From: an uncultured Clostridia bacterium | GTDB taxonomy: Bacteria > Bacillota > Clostridia > Lachnospirales > Lachnospiraceae | Assembly (NCBI GenBank): GCA_947178045.1 | Contig: CAMWWR010000075.1 | Span: 1-7,756, forward strand | Reading direction: 5' to 3' | Length of the DNA: 7,756 nucleotides | Shown here: positions 1-7,756 of the stretch, one piece after another | Layout of the letters: each line of letters opens with the position of its first letter | How positions within the stretch are numbered: position 1 is the first letter of the stretch | Position numbers and translations under genes: made by a program | Notes under the pieces: model-generated | Told to the model about the DNA's origin: nothing | What the model saw: only the letters and a program-made list of their open reading frames with translations | The model's database searches: none

Positions 1-186
1 CGCGCCGTTGTCCGTCACGCGGACCAGGCCGATGCCGCCCTCCCGGATCTCCACGGTCACGGAGCTTGCGCCTGCGTCGACCGCATTCTCCACAAGTTCC
101 TTCACAACGGAGGCCGGGCGCTCCACCACCTCGCCCGCCGCGATCTGATTTATCGTATCCGAATCAAGCACATGAATCTTTGACAT
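1..186 (-). CDS. mutL: DNA mismatch repair protein MutL, N-terminal 62 residues (partial, runs off the left edge)
   Basis: MutL is the matchmaker ATPase (an endonuclease in most Firmicutes) recruited by MutS at mismatches. Translating the minus strand from the ATG at 186-184 gives 62 residues of the GHKL ATPase domain. Motif I is visible as [12 protein letters not shown] (residues 29-40), with the presumed catalytic Glu30 and Mg-binding Asn34; motif II begins as TDNGA at residues 58-62. The segment [17 protein letters not shown] is the typical MutL N-terminus. The start is supported by a purine-rich GAGGAGGAGGGG stretch (about 192-203) upstream of the ATG and by alignment with the usual MutL start. 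It lies 22 bases after the mutS stop, so the two are almost certainly co-transcribed. The rest of the protein, including the C-terminal endonuclease domain, is outside the window. Confidence 0.97.
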
Positions 187-208
187 GGCCGCCCCTCCTC
201 CTCTCATT

Positions 209-2902
209 TTAATTGGATTTCAGCCTTTCCTGAAGCTCATAGAGCTTGTTGAGCGCAGCGATCGGCGTCAGGGCCGACAGATCAAGCTCCCTCAGCTCCG
301 CAAGCACCGGATTTTCCGGGGGAGCAAAAAATGAAAGCTGTTCAAAGCCCTCCGCGTAGGCTCCCCGCCCGCGCGCCGGCGGATTCGGTCTCGCCTTTTC
401 ACGCTTTTCCCTCCGGTCCGCGCCTTGCTGCGGCGATCCCTTCGTGTGATCCGCGAGAAGCCTTGCCCGCTCCGCCATATCGTTCTCGTTTAAAGTATCG
501 GCGATCTCCCGCGCACGGGTCAGCACGTCGGCCGGTACTCCGGCCAGCCTAGCGACCTGAATGCCATAGCTCTTGTCCGCGCCGCCCCGGACAATCTTCC
601 GCAAAAATACAATATCGTCGCCGGATTCCTTTACCGCAATGCAGTAATTGTTCACTCCCGGAAGCTTGCCTTCCAGCTCGGTCAGCTCGTGGTAATGCGT
701 TGCAAACAGCGTTTTGGCTCCGATATTTTCCGGACTGTTAATATGCTCCGCCACGGCCCATGCAATGCTCAGGCCGTCGAAGGTCGATGTGCCGCGCCCG
801 ATCTCGTCGAGAATAATAAGGCTGTTTCGCGTCGCGTTCCGGAGGATATTTGCCACCTCCGTCATTTCCACCATAAAGGTGCTCTGGCCTGAGGCGAGAT
901 CGTCCGACGCGCCGACGCGCGTAAAAATGCGGTCGACAATGCCGATATCCGCCATTGATGCGGGCACGAAGGAGCCGATCTGCGCCATCAGCACAATAAG
1001 CGCGGTCTGGCGCATATAGGTCGATTTTCCCGCCATATTCGGGCCGGTGATAATGGACAGCCGGTTGCTTTCATTGTCCAGCAGCGTATCATTCGCGACA
1101 AACGAATCGTTGTTCAGCATCTTTTCCACGACCGGGTGCCTGCCGTCTCGAATCTCAATGCGTCCCTCCGTATTGACGGACGGGCGCACAAAACGGCCGT
1201 GATCGGCGACAAACGCCAGAGAGGCGAATACATCCAGCCTTGCCACCGCTCTTGCCGTGCGCTGAATACGCTCGACCTCGGCCGCAATTTTCTCCCGGAT
1301 ATCGGAGAATATCTCGTATTCCAACGCGACGAGCTTATCCTCCGCATTCAGTATCCTGTCCTCCAGCTCCTTCAGCTCCGGCGTGGTATAGCGCTCCGCG
1401 CCGCTGAGCGTCTGCTTGCGGATCCAGTCCTCCGGCACCAGCTCCTTAAAGGAATTTGTCACCTCGAGATAGTAGCCGAATACCCGGTTGAACTTCACGC
1501 GCAGATTTTTGATGCCGGTGCGCTCCTTCTCCCTTGCCTCCAGCTCGGAGAGCCAGTTCTTCCCCTCCGTCTTGGCGCTGCGCAGGCTGTCCACCTCCTT
1601 GTGGAAGCCACTGCGGATCATTCCGCCCTCCTTCGTGCTGATCGGCGGGTCCGGCTCGATCGCACTCTCGACCAGCATGCACAGATCCTCAAGCGGATCC
1701 ATCTCCGAGCGGATTTTCTTAAGCTCGCTGCTGCCCAGGCCCTCCAGCAGATAACGGATCGGCGGAAGCATGGACAGGGAGGAGGCGAAGGCGATCAGAT
1801 CGCGCGGGTTGGCGCTCCGATAGCTGACTCTTCCCATCAGGCGCTCCAGGTCGTAGATTGCGTCCAGATATTCTCTCAGCTCATCCCTTGTAATAACGTT
1901 CGCGTTCAGCTCCTCGACCGCATCGAGGCGCGCGCGGATCTCCTCTGTATCGATGAGCGGCTGCTCGATATAGCTGCGCAGCAGCCTGGCTCCCATGGCC
2001 GTTTTTGTCCGGTCCAGCACCCAGAGCAGCGAGCCGCGCTTTGTCTTTTCCCGCAGCGTCTCGACCAGCTCCAGATTGCGTCGGGTCGAGGTATCCATCA
2101 CCATGTATTTGCTTGTCCGGTACGGCGTCAGCCGGGTCAGATGCTCCAGCGCCGTTTTCTGCGTCGTGATCAGGTACTGCAGCACCGCCCCGGCCGCGTT
2201 CCGGCCGACGGTGTAGTCGCCGAGCCCGAGGCCCTCCAGGGCTGTGACCTTAAAATGCTCCCGCAGTGCCTTCTCGCACAGCTCGCCGTCATAATACCAG
2301 TCCTCCAGCTCCGCGACCGCGATATGATAGCGGCCCTTCAGCTCCTCGATATCGATACCGCACGCCAGAAAGACCGGGCTGCAGATAATTTCGGAGGGCG
2401 AGAATTTGTAGATCTCATCCATAATTCCGCGCACGGAATCAACCTCTGTCACATAATAATCACCGGTCGAAATGTCCGCCGCGGAAATTCCGTAGCAGCC
2501 GTCCGCACCGATGATCCCCATCAGATAATTATTTTTTGCGGCGTCCATCGACTGGATATCCACGTTGGTGCCGGGTGTGACGATGCGTGTCACATCGCGC
2601 TTTACAAGTCCCTTCGCCTGCTTCGGATCCTCCACCTGCTCGCAGATCGCCACGCGGTAGCCCTTCTCGACAAGCCTTGTCAGATAGCTGTCGACGGCGT
2701 GGTACGGCACGCCGCACATCGGAGCGCGCTCATCCAGTCCGCAGGCCTTCCCCGTCAGCGTGATCTCCAGCTCTCTCGATGCGGTGAGAGCATCCTCAAA
2801 AAACATCTCGTAAAAATCGCCGAGACGATAGAATAAAATGCAGTCCGGATACTGTTTTTTCGTCTCCACATACTGCTGCATCATTGGTGTAAGTTCCGCC
2901 AT
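209..2902 (-). CDS. mutS: DNA mismatch repair protein MutS (MutS1)
   Basis: Cytoplasmic mismatch sensor that binds mispaired DNA and, on ATP exchange, recruits MutL. At 897 residues it is full length for the family (about 850-900). Domain I carries the mismatch-wedging Phe-X-Glu motif (F30-Y31-E32 in GDFYEMFF). Connector, lever and clamp domains follow (about 125-600). The ATPase domain has Walker [10 protein letters not shown] (620-628), the signature segment [15 protein letters not shown] (666-680), Walker B LIILDE (695-700) with GRGTSTFDG after it, and the switch histidine in FATHYHEL (733-740). The dimerisation helix-turn-helix region is near 773-790. A basic, proline-rich, probably disordered linker (about 815-852) leads to QLSFF (855-859), which matches the beta-clamp-binding motif known from Bacillus MutS. 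The C-terminal helical piece resembles the tetramerisation tail. The start is fixed by an AGGAGG site (2908-2913) five bases upstream. No defect seen. Confidence 0.99.
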
Positions 2903-2926
2903 TGGTTCCTCCTTAGAAAAGCAAAC

Positions 2927-2941
2927 GCCCGGCAGCCGGGC
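2927..2941 (-). terminator. Small GC hairpin between rnhA and mutS (weak terminator or RNA-processing site)
   Basis: GCCCGG (2927-2932) and CCGGGC (2936-2941) form a perfect 6-bp stem with a 3-base loop. Read on the minus strand it is followed by GTTTGCTTTTC, an interrupted T-rich stretch. It lies after the rnhA stop and 14 bases before the mutS ribosome site. The stem is short and the T-tract poor, so partial termination or mRNA end-protection is more likely than a full stop; mutS has no other obvious promoter nearby. Confidence 0.35.
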
Positions 2942-2961
2942 CTTCTGAAATCCGGAAGGAC

Positions 2962-3441
2962 TCAGCCGCCAAGGCCCTCGTCGACCGCCAGCTCCTCCCC
3001 GTCCGCCGCCGCGGTCGCCAGCGCGGCGCAGCGCTCATTCTGCGGGTGCCCGTTATGCCCCTTCACCCAGCGGAATTCCACCCGGTGCGGCGCCATCGCC
3101 TTAAGCAGGCGCTTCCACAGATCCACGTTTTTTACCGGCTCGCTTCCGCTCCGCTTCCAGTTCTTTTTCTGCCAGCCGTCGATCCAATGCTCGGTAAATG
3201 CTTTGACCAGATACTGTGAGTCCGAGTAGAGCGTTACCTCGCAGGGCCGGATAAGCGCCTCCAGCCCGACGATCGCCGCCATCAGCTCCATGCGGTTGTT
3301 TGTCGTGCGCACATAGCCGCCCGAATATTCCCGGAGATGCTCCGTTCCCCTGCCGTCTATGTAGGATACTATTGTTCCGTAACCGCCCGGCCCGTCCGGA
3401 TTTCCCCGCGCCGAGCCGTCCGTATAAATCGTCACCCTCAT
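2962..3441 (-). CDS. rnhA: Ribonuclease HI, with the fourth catalytic Asp replaced by Ala
   Basis: RNase HI cuts the RNA strand of RNA:DNA hybrids (R-loops, primer remnants) in the cytoplasm, using two metal ions held by a D-E-D-D set. The protein has 159 residues (E. coli 155) and is a single RNase H fold without an extra N-terminal domain. Visible motifs are [17 protein letters not shown] (Asp8), [12 protein letters not shown] (Glu52), LYSDSQYLV (Asp74), the basic-protrusion-like [14 protein letters not shown] (86-99) and [14 protein letters not shown] (His129 at the end of the flap). The fourth carboxylate, expected right after NERC (E. coli Asp134), is Ala139 here, encoded by GCC at 3025-3027; one base separates it from the Asp codon GAC. 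The ATG follows an AAAGGA-type ribosome site. It sits between the MutS-like gene and mutS in an apparent operon. Family assignment is certain; full activity is not. Confidence 0.96.
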
Positions 3442-3478
3442 GCTCTTATTCCTTTCCCCATGCTTCGCGACCGGAAAC

Positions 3479-3497
3479 CTGCCGTCCCATACGGCAG
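3479..3497 (-). terminator. Hairpin between the MutS-like gene and rnhA (weak terminator or attenuator)
   Basis: CTGCCGT (3479-3485) and ACGGCAG (3491-3497) make a perfect 7-bp stem with a 5-base loop. On the minus strand only GTTTCC follows, so there is no proper U-tract. It lies in the 76-base gap, 21 bases after the MutS-like stop. It may lower read-through into rnhA or stabilise the upstream mRNA end; I do not regard it as a full terminator. Confidence 0.35.
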
Positions 3498-3517
3498 CCT
3501 TCGCCGCTTAACCGCTT

Positions 3518-5191
3518 TTATTCGAAGGCCTGCCATTCACCGGTCTGCTCGAAATGCCGGGCGCGCTCCTCGGCCCGCTCTGTGATCCGGTCGGCATAGC
3601 CGAGCATCTTCAGCAGCCGGATCGCATTTTTCGACACCGCCCGCCCCTCATAGAGTTTGTAATCGAACAGCACCTGATCGTCCTCGACATATTCCTGGAA
3701 ATGGTAGTTGGAATACTGCTTTTCCAGAATATGCGTCAGCTCGATATCGTGGGTCGCCGCAAAGCAGATCGCGTTCCCGGACGCGAAATCCGACAGAATC
3801 TCGGACGAAGCCGCGATGCGCTCGAGCGTGTTCGTGCCGCGCAGCACCTCGTCCACGAAGCAGAGCATCGGCCGCCCGTCCCCGATGCGGTCCGCGATCC
3901 GCTTCAGCGATTTTATTTCGACAATGTAATAGCTCTCCTTGCTGAAAATATCGTCGCGCAGCGCCATCGAGGACGCGACCTGGAAAAAGCTCGCGCGGTA
4001 TTCCGCAGCCATCACCGTGCCGATCGTCTGCGCAAGGATGGCGTTGATGGCGAGCGTTTTGATAAAGGTGGATTTTCCGGAGGCGTTGGAGCCCGTGATC
4101 AGCACGCTGCGCTCCTCCGAGATGGAGGCTTTGACCGGCTCGTCCAGCATCGGGTGATAGACCTCCCTCACAGACAAAAACGGCTTTCCGTCCGAAACGA
4201 GCTCCGGCACGCACCAGTCGCGCATCAGCGCGCGGAAGGAGGCGGCCGCGATCATCGCGTCGAGAAAGCCCGCCGTCTCAAAAAGCGTTGTCAGCTCCTT
4301 CTCGTTATTATCAAAGATTTTCATCATCTGGTTGAATTTAATCAGATCAATGTGGAACAGCATGCGGAAATAATCGACCATTCCCTCCAGCAGGTCTCCG
4401 GTCGGCCGCTTTCCCGCCACAATGCGCGCGCCCTTCCGGAAGCCGGCAAATACCTTCAGCGTCTCCCGGACCGACGCCGTATAGACCTCGATCTCCCGGT
4501 CCGGCAGCTCCGAGAGCGTCTTCATGCCGTCCATCATTCGAATGAGATGCGATACAACGGTGAAATATTTTTCGATATCGCTCTTTCTTTTATAATACGA
4601 GAACGCGTTATATATCCCGACAATAATGACCGCGAGCACGCCCGTCACCGGAGCGACAAAAATCAGCGCGATCGCCGCGAGCATCCAGAGCATGCTGAGA
4701 TAGTGCGCGACGTTGCTCTCCCGTTTCAGCGTATGGAGCATGTTGATGTACTCGTAGATGGAAATATTTCTTTCCTTTCCCATTCGCATAAACTGCTCCT
4801 GCAGCTTCTGCCTTTCCGTCCTGTGCTTTGAGAAATGCTCGATCAGCCGGTTGCGTTCGGCCAGCTCCTCACCGGAAAAGCTCAGCCGGTGCAGCATGGC
4901 AAACAGATATTCCTCGCCCGCGGCGGAGCCGGTATTATTCATCGTCATAAAGATCTGATCCATATCCAGATCGTTCCATGTGATACTGTCAATATCGCCC
5001 TCGCCCTTTTCCTGCTGATTATAATAAAACTGGAGCGAGCGGTACTTGTCCTCGGAATATTCTTCCGACGGCACCTGTCCCCATTCCTTCTCCATCCTGC
5101 GGTACAGTCCGGCCGTATATTTCCTCTCGTCGTAAATGCTTTTTCCCAATAATGCAAGCAGCACCACGGCCGCAATTCCAACATAAAGCAT
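3518..5191 (-). CDS. Membrane-anchored MutS-family ATPase (MutS domain V protein), function unknown
   Basis: A 557-residue protein with a complete MutS-type ATPase at its C-terminus but no mismatch-binding domain I, no Phe-X-Glu motif and no Smr nuclease domain. It is therefore neither MutS1 nor MutS2. The N-terminus is a hydrophobic helix (about 2-16), and a second hydrophobic block (about 163-199) could be a transmembrane hairpin. The stretch between is charged and helical. From about 230 to 340 it resembles a lever/clamp-type helical region. ATPase motifs are Walker A GSNASGKST (367-375), a signature-like region around RDDIFSKESYYIVEI (412-426), Walker B LCFVDE (443-448) followed by RGTNT, and a switch histidine in AATHDIEL (His481). 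All key residues are present, so ATP hydrolysis is likely. The start has GGAGG (5201-5205) nine bases upstream and its own promoter. Related proteins are often annotated simply as MutS; a direct mismatch-repair role is unproven. Confidence 0.9.
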   Translation of the reverse strand: MLYVGIAAVVLLALLGKSIYDERKYTAGLYRRMEKEWGQVPSEEYSEDKYRSLQFYYNQQEKGEGDIDSITWNDLDMDQIFMTMNNTGSAAGEEYLFAMLHRLSFSGEELAERNRLIEHFSKHRTERQKLQEQFMRMGKERNISIYEYINMLHTLKRESNVAHYLSMLWMLAAIALIFVAPVTGVLAVIIVGIYNAFSYYKRKSDIEKYFTVVSHLIRMMDGMKTLSELPDREIEVYTASVRETLKVFAGFRKGARIVAGKRPTGDLLEGMVDYFRMLFHIDLIKFNQMMKIFDNNEKELTTLFETAGFLDAMIAAASFRALMRDWCVPELVSDGKPFLSVREVYHPMLDEPVKASISEERSVLITGSNASGKSTFIKTLAINAILAQTIGTVMAAEYRASFFQVASSMALRDDIFSKESYYIVEIKSLKRIADRIGDGRPMLCFVDEVLRGTNTLERIAASSEILSDFASGNAICFAATHDIELTHILEKQYSNYHFQEYVEDDQVLFDYKLYEGRAVSKNAIRLLKMLGYADRITERAEERARHFEQTGEWQAFE

Positions 5192-5200
5192 AGTTTTTTT

Positions 5201-5205
5201 CCTCC
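5201..5205 (-). promoter_or_regulatory. Ribosome binding site GGAGG of the MutS-like gene
   Basis: On the minus strand GGAGG is followed by nine A-rich bases and then the ATG at 5191-5189. It fixes the start that includes the N-terminal hydrophobic helix. Two upstream ATGs in the leader (near 5234 and 5224) are in other frames and lack such a site. Confidence 0.75.
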
Positions 5206-5242
5206 GCGCCGCCGTATCGACAGCATATTTTCATCCTGCTTT

Positions 5243-5271
5243 ATTATACAAATGAAATGAAATTTCGTCAA
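5243..5271 (-). promoter_or_regulatory. Sigma-A promoter of the mutS-like / rnhA / mutS / mutL unit
   Basis: Minus-strand -35 TTGACG (5271-5266, five of six consensus bases), a 17-base AT-rich spacer, and -10 TATAAT (5248-5243, perfect). Transcription should begin near 5237-5236, giving a leader of about 45 bases before the ATG at 5191. It is the only strong promoter I see for the genes to its left. The -35 box begins one base after the U-tract of the GH43 terminator. Confidence 0.88.
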
Positions 5272-5272
5272 T

Positions 5273-5324
5273 AAAAAGAGACGCCCCCTTTGCGCGGATT
5301 TTTTGATTCCGCGCAAGGGGCGTC
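5273..5324 (-). terminator. Strong rho-independent terminator downstream of the GH43 gene
   Basis: The arms 5280-5298 and 5308-5324 pair over 17 bp (GACGCCCC with GGGGCGTC, then TTGCGCGGA with TCCGCGCAA). There is a two-base bulge on one side and a 9-base loop. On the minus strand the stem is followed by CTCTTTTT (5280-5273). It starts about 35 bases beyond the GH43 stop. The plus-strand side lacks a T-run, so it works in one direction. Confidence 0.9.
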
Positions 5325-5339
5325 CTGTTGTTATTTTAT

Positions 5340-5351
5340 GGCCGTACGGCC
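5340..5351. repeat. 12-bp perfect palindrome GGCCGTACGGCC just after the GH43 stop
   Basis: A 12-base palindrome eight bases past the GH43 stop codon. As a hairpin it gives only a 4-bp stem with a 4-base loop. On the plus strand it is followed by GTTTTT, so it could be a weak plus-strand terminator, although no plus-strand gene reads into it. Role unknown. Confidence 0.4.
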
Positions 5352-5358
5352 GTTTTTC

Positions 5359-7008
5359 TCATTCCATGCAGAAGCAGAAGAATTCTGCGCGATTATCCGT
5401 CGCCGTATGGTTGGAACTTGTATACATGCCGACGGTGTTGCCGACAAAACCGCCGGCCGCCTCCGTGCTCAAAAAGCGTGCGTCCATGGCAGGCCCCAGC
5501 CTTTCAAAGCGGCCGTCCTCCTGCGCATACCAGAAGGTCAGCTGCTGGCCGTTCTGCATGACGGCCAGCGTCAGCGTTTCCGTCTTCTGCGTCAGCGCCT
5601 TCTCTGCGCGGATCTCGCCGAAACGCTCCGGAAGCGCACTTTCCTCCGGCAAAGACCCGGATTCATTTGCTCCGCCGGATTTACCGGACAGGGATTCCTC
5701 AGAACCCGCGCCCTCACCGGATTCGCCGGATAACCGGTCTCCGAAGCTCACAATGCGCAGTACTGTCTGGCCCTTCGATGCCGCGACAACGAAGCGCACG
5801 CTCGCCTCCTCGCTCTGAAGCAGCACCAGTCCGGCCTCCTCCGCGTCCTCCGGGCGGAACCTGAGCTCCGTCCTCACGGTGTAGTGATAGCTCTTCTGCC
5901 GGATGCCGAGATAGGAAGCGTTCGTTTTCTCCGTGATCGTTTCCGGCGACGTTTTCAGAATCAGAGAGCCGTTCCCCGCAAGCTCATACATATCCGGCTT
6001 CGGATTGCGCACCGTCACGAAATGCGGGTCGAGTGTCCTGGTATGGAAGGTATAGCAGCTGTTCTCCGGCAGCTCGCATACCTCCGGAAGACCGACCTGC
6101 TGGAATTCGTTCAGTATCCCGACGCCGTCGTTGACAACCGGCCAGCCGTCCTCCCAGGTCACCTTCGCCAGGAAGGTCTCCCGCCCGAGTCCAGTGTACC
6201 ACTCGCACGGTCTGGAGGCGAGCATGACCATGTACCATTCGCCGTCCGGCGTGTCCACAAGGTCGGCATGGCCGACATAACGGATCGGATAATTTTTCCC
6301 GAGATGACGGTGCGTCAGAATCGGATTGTTGAAATTTCCGACATACGGCCCCACAATATCACGGCTGCGCGCGACGCAGACCGCATGGGCCGGGCCGGTG
6401 CCGCCCTCGGCGTGCATAATATAATAATAGCCGTCCTTCTTGTACAGATGCGGGCCCTCCGGCCACTCCGCATCGCGCATCGCACCCTTCCACGCAAGCG
6501 TATAATCTCCTACAAGGCAGAAATTGTCCAGATCCAGCTCTTGAATATAGATATACCAGTCGCCGTTGTAGCGCACGCCGTCCGGATTCGGGCGCGTGCC
6601 GATATAATAGCATTTTCCGTCGTCGTCAAAGAACAGGCTCGGGTCAATCCCCTCCGCTCCCTTCAGATAATGCGGCTCGGACCATGGCCCTGCCGGATTT
6701 TCCGCTGTCACGATAAAATTGCCGCCGTGCGATACATTGGTTGTGATCATATAGAATACGCCCTCGTGAAAGCGTATCGTCGGCGCAAAAATCCCCTGCG
6801 ACATTCTGGAATCGCCGAGCGGAAGCTGCGAGTCCCTCGTCAGCACGTTTCCGATCTGGTGAAAATGCTGCAGGTCGCGGCTCTCAAACACCGGCACGCC
6901 CGGAAAATAGGCAAAGGTTGAATTTACGATATAGTAGGAATCTCCGACCCGGCAGATCGACGGATCCGGATAAAAGCCCGACAATATCGGATTTTTGACT
7001 GTGGACAT
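5359..7008 (-). CDS. Glycoside hydrolase family 43 protein (beta-xylosidase / alpha-L-arabinofuranosidase type)
   Basis: GH43 enzymes are inverting glycosidases that remove xylose or arabinose from xylan- or arabinan-derived chains. The five-bladed propeller domain fills about residues 4-310. The catalytic base is Asp15 in NPILSGFYPDPS, the pKa-modulating Asp122 is in GIDPSLFFDDDG, the general acid is Glu184 in EWPEGPHLY, and the conserved metal-site His247 is in VGHADLV. Residues about 320-549 form a C-terminal beta-sandwich (XynB-C / concanavalin-like), as in the GH43 subfamily 11/12 type of enzyme. There is no signal peptide, so it should act in the cytoplasm on imported oligosaccharides. 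An odd Gly/Ser/Glu-rich insert (426-457) interrupts the sandwich. The start has AGGAGG (7013-7018) four bases upstream. It follows a UxuB-like gene on the same strand by 101 bases and ends at a strong terminator. Family and triad are clear; xylosidase versus arabinofuranosidase cannot be settled by eye. Confidence 0.95.
   Translation of the reverse strand: MSTVKNPILSGFYPDPSICRVGDSYYIVNSTFAYFPGVPVFESRDLQHFHQIGNVLTRDSQLPLGDSRMSQGIFAPTIRFHEGVFYMITTNVSHGGNFIVTAENPAGPWSEPHYLKGAEGIDPSLFFDDDGKCYYIGTRPNPDGVRYNGDWYIYIQELDLDNFCLVGDYTLAWKGAMRDAEWPEGPHLYKKDGYYYIMHAEGGTGPAHAVCVARSRDIVGPYVGNFNNPILTHRHLGKNYPIRYVGHADLVDTPDGEWYMVMLASRPCEWYTGLGRETFLAKVTWEDGWPVVNDGVGILNEFQQVGLPEVCELPENSCYTFHTRTLDPHFVTVRNPKPDMYELAGNGSLILKTSPETITEKTNASYLGIRQKSYHYTVRTELRFRPEDAEEAGLVLLQSEEASVRFVVAASKGQTVLRIVSFGDRLSGESGEGAGSEESLSGKSGGANESGSLPEESALPERFGEIRAEKALTQKTETLTLAVMQNGQQLTFWYAQEDGRFERLGPAMDARFLSTEAAGGFVGNTVGMYTSSNHTATDNRAEFFCFCME
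5638..5733 (-). repeat. Degenerate tandem duplication coding a Gly/Ser/Glu-rich insert in the GH43 protein
   Basis: Residues 426-439 (LSGESGEGAGSEES) and 440-457 (LSGKSGGANESGSLPEES) are two diverged copies of one unit. At the DNA level both begin with a TCCGGYRAATCCGG-like core (minus strand). The encoded stretch is low-complexity and hydrophilic, and separates a strand ending RIVSFGD from one beginning ERFGEIRAE in the C-terminal beta-sandwich. A surface loop expanded by slippage or recombination is the simplest reading. Confidence 0.7.
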
Positions 7009-7053
7009 GTGCCCTCCTCTTTTTCTGCTTCACTATGTTTTGCTTATTGTTTC

Positions 7054-7070
7054 TGATTTTTCAAAAATCA
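7054..7070. repeat. Perfect 8+1+8 inverted repeat upstream of the GH43 gene (possible operator)
   Basis: TGATTTTT (7054-7061), one central base, AAAAATCA (7063-7070). It lies 46-62 bases upstream of the GH43 start. The 1-base centre makes a poor RNA hairpin but suits a dimeric DNA-binding regulator. I see no convincing -35/-10 pair around it, so an operator role is a guess. Confidence 0.4.
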
Positions 7071-7079
7071 CCGGATGCA

Positions 7080-7098
7080 AAGCCTCTTTCAGAGGCTT
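7080..7098 (-). terminator. Hairpin after the UxuB-like gene (weak terminator or processing stem)
   Basis: AAGCCTCT (7080-7087) and AGAGGCTT (7091-7098) form a perfect 8-bp stem with a 3-base loop, 11 bases past the stop codon. On the minus strand the stem ends in TT followed by TGC, so the U-tract is very short; the next T-run is about 18 bases away. Partial termination with read-through into the GH43 gene is plausible. Confidence 0.45.
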
Positions 7099-7109
7099 AC
7101 GGATTAGCC

Positions 7110-7719
7110 TCAGCCGAGTACGCGCTTCAATGTCTCCCTCACCGCGCCCGGCTGTGCATTCAGCTCATTGAAATACGCGGTAATCTTTGTGGAAAGTCCG
7201 CTTTCCACAAGATCGACAGCAAACAGATCACGGCGCGAAAGGATATCGTCAAAGGTTTTCTGCGGCACGATCTGCCCGAAGGTCACATCTTTCATTGCCT
7301 CCTGCAGCTCGCCGAGCATCGGGTCCGGCGACGGCTCGAAGCGGTTTCCGTCATCGTCCACCCCGAGCAGATAACGCAGGTATCCGGCCAGCACAAGCGG
7401 AATAAATTTCAGCCCGTCCAGCTTTTTCCCCTGGGCGAGATAAGCCTTCAGCGTCTCCCCGAACCGGATCGGAAGCTTCTGGGAGGTGTCAGTGGCAATG
7501 CGCTGCGGTGTATCCGGCATGAAAACATTCGGCAGACGCCGGTTCAGAACGGCATCGATGAAATCCTCCGGCTTCAGAATGCCCGGGTGAACGACGACCG
7601 GCATTCCCTCCTCATAGCCCATCCGCGTGACGAGGCTGCGGAGCAGCTCATCCTCCATCTCGTCATGGATCGTCGTGTACGACATCAGGCAGCCGAAGAT
7701 CGCCAGCGCCGTATGAAGC
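7110..7719 (-). CDS. uxuB: Mannitol dehydrogenase family protein, probably fructuronate reductase, C-terminal part (cut by contig end)
   Basis: About 202 genomic residues of the C-terminal domain of long-chain polyol dehydrogenases (mannitol / fructuronate / tagaturonate reductases). Fructuronate reductase interconverts D-fructuronate and D-mannonate with NAD(H) in glucuronate breakdown. Recognisable stretches are LHTALAIFGCLMSY, NVFMPDTPQRIATDTSQKLP and FIPLVLAGYLRYLLG. The family catalytic motif is K-x4-N-x2-H. Its His survives (codon 7715-7713), but the Lys and Asn lie beyond the break, as does the whole NAD-binding Rossmann domain. Roughly 60% of a usual ~530-residue protein is missing. 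The open frame continues to a GTG at 7748-7746, but those first ten codons are read almost entirely from sequencing adapter and are not protein. The stop is TGA at 7112-7110. The LHTALA form fits Firmicute fructuronate reductases best; I am sure of the family, less so of the substrate. Confidence 0.85.
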
Positions 7720-7756
7720 CTGTCACTAATACACCTCTCCGAGCCCACGAGACAGG
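7720..7756. other. Illumina Nextera (Tn5 transposase) read-2 adapter remnant at a contig end, not genomic DNA
   Basis: The plus strand from 7720 to 7753 matches the reverse complement of the Nextera read-2 transposase adapter at 31 of 34 positions. The 15-base tail CCGAGCCCACGAGAC (7739-7753) is exact. The 19-base Tn5 mosaic end (7720-7738) differs at three positions: 7725 T to A, 7728 T to A, 7735 A to C. The last three bases (AGG, 7754-7756) sit where the i7 index would begin. So the true sequence ends near 7719 and this is an untrimmed assembly edge. Confidence 0.95.

Follow-up and report, generated by a model that had tools for sequence, protein, structure and literature searches.

A MutS-fold ATPase with a predicted membrane hairpin, encoded upstream of rnhA-mutS-mutL in a Lachnospiraceae bacterium

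MutS ATPases belong to the ABC type and carry paired ATP sites that go through a cycle of opening and closing. KamC, the reactivase ATPase of lysine 5,6-aminomutase and a MutS-type protein of about 500 aa, provides a precedent for a job of such an ATPase outside repair, and it is not known to have membrane segments. A tendency to form dimers is reported for MutS proteins, as is an action of MutS2 on ribosomes through an ATP-dependent change (PMC12292046). We analysed a 7,756-nucleotide stretch of DNA (the window) from an uncultured Clostridia bacterium of the Lachnospiraceae (GenBank GCA_947178045.1, contig CAMWWR010000075.1, positions 1 to 7,756 of the forward strand), in which the gene of a MutS-family protein, here called tmMutS, precedes rnhA, mutS and the start of mutL on the minus strand. 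The reading we put forward, with belief and doubt about evenly balanced, is that tmMutS is a MutS-fold ATPase held in the cytoplasmic membrane by a predicted hairpin, where it would form a dimeric switch, driven by ATP, for a membrane-associated partner and would not be a mismatch-repair clamp.

Membership of tmMutS in the MutS superfamily was established with the Pfam profile MutS_V (E = 4e-24; 86.1 bits against a curated cut-off of 30.2), and its ATP site is intact and conserved in an alignment of 87 sequences, comprising the window protein, 23 of 120 listed proteins and 63 of 80 loci (Table 1). Its signature region aligns with STFMVEM of MutS1, and we infer that its C-terminal helical region dimerises. 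The same Pfam search, whose filters drop most matches above 0.1, yielded a mere trace of MutS_III (E = 0.0076) and no match to MutS_I, MutS_II, MutS_IV or Smr at E≤1 in tmMutS; the window mutS product scored 1.4e-47 for MutS_I and 4.2e-31 for MutS_IV. None of the NCBIfam equivalog cut-offs was reached by tmMutS, which scored far below those of MutS1 (104.7 of 480 bits for NF003810 and 89.6 of 641.7 for TIGR01070), as well as below those of MutS2 (63.7 of 400, TIGR01069) and KamC (71.0 of 300, NF052383). It differs from MutS1 in leaving domains I, II and IV unmatched and in its predicted membrane hairpin within the core, from MutS2 in having no Smr or clamp match, and from KamC in that no aminomutase gene lies in the window. 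When profiles were compared with those of MutS1 and MutS2, the C-terminal half was the only part of tmMutS to align, the MutS1 alignment covering residues 266-550 with residue 266 at MutS1 residue 512, and the MutS_III trace sets residue 79 at profile position 20. These two positions, together with the missing MutS_IV match, suggest the loss of about 75 residues from the lever and clamp. In a fold search, the matches listed were all MutS-type chains.

The mid-core hairpin was found in 87/87 close relatives, in 40/40 loci belonging to a different family or genus and in 10/10 members of a 600-aa sister subfamily described below. No hydrophobic segment occupies this place in any of 21 MutS1 proteins, and the MutS2 of the same genome has no comparable one. 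Because 2 of 2000 shuffles of the protein attained its Kyte-Doolittle hydropathy (KD) of 2.84 anywhere, the hairpin lies beyond chance expectation. Model helices span residues 161-179 and 181-227 in this region, and the multiple alignment would place the insertion point after the first core helices and before the ATPase. The N-terminal segment is matched in hydropathy (KD 2.16) by 168 of the shuffles, and its candidacy as an anchor comes from conservation in 87/87 close relatives; with 28/40 loci of other families or genera having it, it is optional. It is followed by charged, K/R-containing sequence, which predicts an N-out/C-in orientation, so that the predicted topology is N-out with one anchor, one hairpin and a cytoplasmic ATPase. 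An initial annotation had described a MutS-family ATPase whose Walker A, Walker B, signature and switch residues are intact, which starts with a hydrophobic helix and has a mid-protein hairpin, and which lacks a mismatch-binding or Smr domain, and had proposed a check against MutS subfamily profiles; this description stands, with the correction that tmMutS is not "a second" MutS, the source draft genome (69% complete) having five MutS_V genes.

Since no DNA grip was found and the hairpin sits in the moving core, a membrane switch is the simplest mechanism. As judged from MutS biochemistry, two tmMutS subunits would share two ATP sites, and binding and hydrolysis of ATP would open and close the dimer. 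This motion would then be passed on to the membrane hairpins, or to a partner that they hold, in place of the DNA-gripping levers and clamp of MutS. tmMutS is therefore likely to be neither a mismatch nor an R-loop clamp and to have a job other than mismatch repair. The intact ATP site, the loss of domains, the conservation of the hairpin and the gene order considered below can be read from the sequences, and the membrane insertion, topology and fold are predicted.

Relatives of tmMutS occur in public records, where proteins of Anaerocolumna and Herbinix are about 55% identical to it and more distant ones of Staphylococcus, Ruminococcus and Spirosoma about 29-33%. Within the order, 74 of 295 genomes contain the window type at E≤1e-60. 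Within the class, 74 of 391 have tmMutS-like matches at E≤1e-40, and this count takes in a second subfamily and overlaps in part with the genomes of the first. Further class-wide matches align to the ATPase part only; nine such proteins of Clostridia genomes that were fetched form, with one Bacteroides protein, the sister subfamily of 600-633 aa (L191-L199, L143), which has two hydrophobic N-terminal segments in 9/10 members and a single one in the other. A tree built on the ATPase region of 48 selected proteins sets the membrane types as a group against MutS1, MutS2 and two soluble proteins with an SH-aLRT (Shimodaira-Hasegawa-like approximate likelihood ratio test) support of 97; the window type alone reaches only 90, and this is a quick tree with long branches for the two soluble proteins, MutS2 and one Bacteroides protein. 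The mid-core hairpin marks what appears to be a single membrane branch within the MutS superfamily, which occurs in Bacillota and has some members in Bacteroidota. The wider claim, to which we attach less belief than doubt, is that bacteria hold a membrane MutS branch in forms of about 550 and 600 aa whose hairpin has replaced the DNA clamp, so that the ATP cycle of MutS would power motion within the membrane in place of motion on DNA, and that a widespread ATP-driven membrane machine goes by the name "mismatch repair protein". Separately, one genome encodes two MutS-like ATPases of 548 and 550 aa in tandem on the minus strand (locus L006, G000:C74, 2342-3988 and 4096-5748); both score below all NCBIfam cut-offs, show no hydrophobic segment over threshold and form a separate pair in the tree.

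The gene order around tmMutS was followed in 80 loci of the family, which are the best 80 of 501 and so biased towards the window; downstream counts refer to the 74 with at least 1.5 kb of downstream sequence. Within 1 kb downstream of tmMutS, rnhA was present in 38/74 loci, and mutS started within 1.5 kb in 27/74; both followed in 20/74 and neither in 29/74. Adjacency of rnhA is spread over both deep halves of the family tree with at least 14 changes, and that of mutS is confined to one deep half with at least 6. An even draw of genomes, delivering 28 loci (window included) from 32 family genomes carrying tmMutS, had rnhA within 1.5 kb in 15. Upstream, spoIVA (39/80 loci) and an NlpC/P60 gene (30/80) are common, and neither occurs in the 2.5 kb upstream of the window tmMutS. 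On the contig of tmMutS, mutS was located within 65 kb (3-61 kb) in 14/31 family genomes, which indicates slow decay of one old neighbourhood, and at 142 and 254 kb in two more.

Such an order invites the explanation that tmMutS, tethered to the membrane, assists RNase HI and MutS-MutL in DNA repair or in the removal of R-loops, where it might keep nucleic acid or repair enzymes close to the membrane. We consider this unlikely, while acknowledging the shared strand, the probable common promoter and the adjacency of rnhA and mutS just described; in addition, mutS-mutL-miaA lie about 3.5 kb upstream of tmMutS in one locus outside the family (L177). Against it stand the lack of any recognised DNA-gripping domain in tmMutS and the outcome of a co-retention test, in which 31 family genomes with tmMutS (the window's own excluded) were compared with 16 without it, taking E<1e-50 as a strong rnhA match. 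Strong matches were present in 15/31 and 7/16, respectively (Fisher p = 1.0); inclusion of weak matches (18/31 vs 7/16, p = 0.38) or counting by genus (8/15 vs 5/12, p = 0.70) gave no association either, figures that are indicative given related genomes and small numbers. Three of the 16 tmMutS genomes lacking a strong match had weak ones (1e-12 to 1e-4), and among the seven tmMutS-less genomes with a strong match, rnhA lies near alaS in four and near spoIVA in one, i.e. in the same old neighbourhood. Outside the family, rnhA was near tmMutS in 0/39 loci (19 family codes; about 7 kb where the contig allows) and mutS-mutL in L177 only; twenty class-level loci, with shorter flanks and many from the same genomes, had no rnhA nearby either, and when the 39 loci were clustered by protein similarity, no gene proved to be a direct neighbour of tmMutS in more than one family. 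The presence of MutS1 in 60/60 tmMutS genomes searched says little, MutS1 being widespread. Functional pairing with RNase HI, suggested by adjacency in the 80 loci, is thus unsupported by presence and absence in family genomes. Because the co-retention test was negative and none of the 39 loci outside the family has rnhA nearby, the place of tmMutS ahead of rnhA-mutS-mutL is best read as an old family gene order that was inherited, with partnership not proven. The initial annotation had offered a role in R-loop or membrane-associated DNA handling, which these results do not support, or an unrelated job using the ATPase fold, which fits best; random positions in relatives, which it held would refute a functional link, were observed outside the family and not inside it. 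A tidy operon such as rnhA-mutS-mutL can accordingly be an inherited order, and the test that separates both readings was negative here. A strong match to the window RNase HI was missing in 25/47 family genomes examined, and the gene seems often lost.

Several points weigh against the membrane switch, and those concerning gene order count for a repair accessory at the same time. Tight rnhA adjacency, plus mutS-mutL in one clade, is also expected under a functional link; where a tmMutS genome has a strong rnhA match, it lies within 172 nt downstream in 14/15 cases and at 2.3 kb in the other, and rnhA overlaps the end of tmMutS in 21/41 loci, an upper bound that assumes the first possible start codon. 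Nucleic-acid genes are again the neighbours in one other family only (f8, L126-L130, 5/5 loci fetched), where the order is cdaA-ybbR-tmMutS-helicase-metallo-hydrolase, in which cdaA-ybbR stand for cyclic di-AMP synthesis, the helicase is of the DEAD_2/PD-(D/E)XK type and the hydrolase, placed by Pfam in the metallo-beta-lactamase superfamily and no further, is presumably a WalJ-like exonuclease; a relative of this hydrolase is encoded four genes upstream of tmMutS in two f21 loci. As to the protein itself, the clamp loss is deduced from missing profile matches and lengths, and another surface binding DNA or RNA is possible, e.g. the basic stretch near residues 251-262. Membrane insertion is predicted from hydropathy and a monomer model only, and the one-residue break between the hairpin helices of the model makes a kinked or half-inserted hairpin possible. 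Finally, no partner was found for tmMutS in these comparisons.

A variant that keeps tmMutS in the membrane, which strikes us as improbable, makes it an ABC-like mechanotransmission machine whose dimer, predicted to have 6 membrane helices and in the sister subfamily 8, would push lipids or a membrane protein in the manner of MacB or FtsEX, which are membrane-coupled ABC-type ATPase dimers. The ABC-type nature of MutS ATPases, the position of the hairpin in a core that moves with ATP and the two N-terminal hydrophobic segments added to the mid hairpin in 9/10 sister proteins would agree with this. However, MacB and FtsEX are known for a different membrane domain and for extracytoplasmic parts, and the predicted hairpin loop of tmMutS has almost no extracytoplasmic residues, unlike MacB or FtsX; no match beyond MutS types stands among the fold matches listed, which excludes nothing.

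It is very unlikely that tmMutS is a defence or mobile-element protein, as distant relatives on Staphylococcus plasmid records and weak PADLOC matches might suggest, since the seven PADLOC matches all fall inside the ATPase part (residues 349-466; best 2.2e-6) and a conserved chromosomal stretch (spoIVA, rnhA, mutS, mutL, miaA) holds tmMutS in much of the family. Phage and plasmid records also contain relatives: the S. aureus "plasmid" NZ_CP077935.1 (L088) and the "phage" PhiSepi-HH3, MT880872.1 (L141), look like pieces of chromosome because both carry the same housekeeping stretch of rex, ABC-F, the tmMutS relative, tsaD-rimI-tsaB-tsaE and ilvD. That tmMutS is a decayed remnant of MutS whose hydrophobic stretch arose by chance has next to no likelihood. 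The N-terminal segment, which taken alone is within the range of shuffles, would fit this reading; invariant catalytic residues and a hairpin in every relative checked speak strongly against it.

Returning to the membrane switch, its family is already in public records as "MutS-related protein" or "MutS family DNA mismatch repair protein", names that suggest mismatch repair and, among the records listed, never mention a membrane hairpin. Full-text searches, whose coverage leaves out most subscription papers, returned no paper whose entry tells of a transmembrane MutS, in keeping with the initial view of a poorly described system; the membrane architecture is undescribed in the papers listed. 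Many public records give such proteins a MutS or mismatch-repair name, yet in tmMutS itself neither a mismatch-binding nor a connector or clamp domain can be recognised. Should the hairpin lie in the membrane, the ABC-type MutS motor would have been turned to a membrane task in Bacillota and part of the Bacteroidota, and these names mislead. With a single gene, a fixed hairpin and a known ATP site, the family is easy to test.

On the minus strand, the window carries in 5' to 3' order a truncated gene of the mannitol dehydrogenase family, a glycoside hydrolase family 43 (GH43) glycosidase gene, tmMutS, rnhA, mutS and the start of mutL (Table 1), separated by 76 nt (tmMutS-rnhA), 59 nt (rnhA-mutS) and 1 nt (mutS-mutL). 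The mutL fragment was identified through full-length open reading frames (ORFs) that match it and come after mutS in relatives, e.g. L008. A GGAGG motif lies 9 nt 5' of the tmMutS ATG. Upstream, the predicted GH43 terminator is followed by a promoter-like site, ending 51 nt 5' of the start codon, and then by the start codon itself; 2 such sites were seen in the region against 1.4 expected, hence no proof of a promoter. Because the strong terminator and the promoter-like site directly precede it, tmMutS probably heads its own unit, as the first gene of a predicted tmMutS-rnhA-mutS-mutL unit. The common strand that had been annotated is confirmed, and the shared promoter is only probable.

Table 1. 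Coordinates of tmMutS, its sequence features and the surrounding elements in the window
Feature	Position	Strand	Remarks
tmMutS, 557 aa, MutS-fold ATPase with predicted membrane segments	3518..5191	-	ORF, ATG start
N-terminal hydrophobic segment, residues 1-19, predicted anchor	5135..5191	-	KD 2.16
Mid-core hydrophobic hairpin, residues ~161-202, predicted membrane hairpin	4586..4711	-	KD 2.84
Walker A TGSNASGKSTF, residues 366-376	4064..4096	-	invariant in 87 aligned except S368, nearly invariant
ABC-type signature region ESYYIVEIK, residues 419-427	3911..3937	-	E425 invariant in 87 aligned
Walker B region, residues 443-449 (D447, E448), then RGTNT	3845..3865	-	D447, E448, G452, T453, N454 invariant
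Switch histidine H481 in ATHD	3749..3751	-	invariant in 87 aligned
C-terminal helical region, residues 516-550	3542..3646	-	aligns with end of MutS ATPase/helix-turn-helix (HTH) dimer region
rnhA, RNase HI, 159 aa	2962..3441	-	NCBIfam NF001236, 196 bits, cut-off 160
mutS (MutS1), 897 aa, five domains all present	209..2902	-	Pfam and NCBIfam
mutL, N-terminal 69 aa, gene cut by contig end	1..207	-	HATPase trace
Sigma-70-type promoter-like site TTGACG-17-TATAAT	5243..5271	-	11/12 consensus positions
Predicted intrinsic terminator of upstream GH43 gene	5279..5325	-	hairpin -34.2 kcal/mol, z -7.13, then T-run; UCUCUUUUUAUU

The gap between rnhA and mutS contains a small terminator-like hairpin (window 2927-2941, minus strand), which could attenuate mutS-mutL. 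The upstream part of the window (5359-7754), with the GH43 and mannitol-dehydrogenase-family genes, partly recurs upstream of distant tmMutS copies: a GH43 gene of L073 (6398-7960) is 48% identical to that of the window, and the dehydrogenase cluster c42 was found upstream of tmMutS in L064, L065, L073 and L084. L008, the closest relative of the window, has spoIVA and the NlpC/P60 gene upstream of tmMutS instead of the GH43 and dehydrogenase genes.
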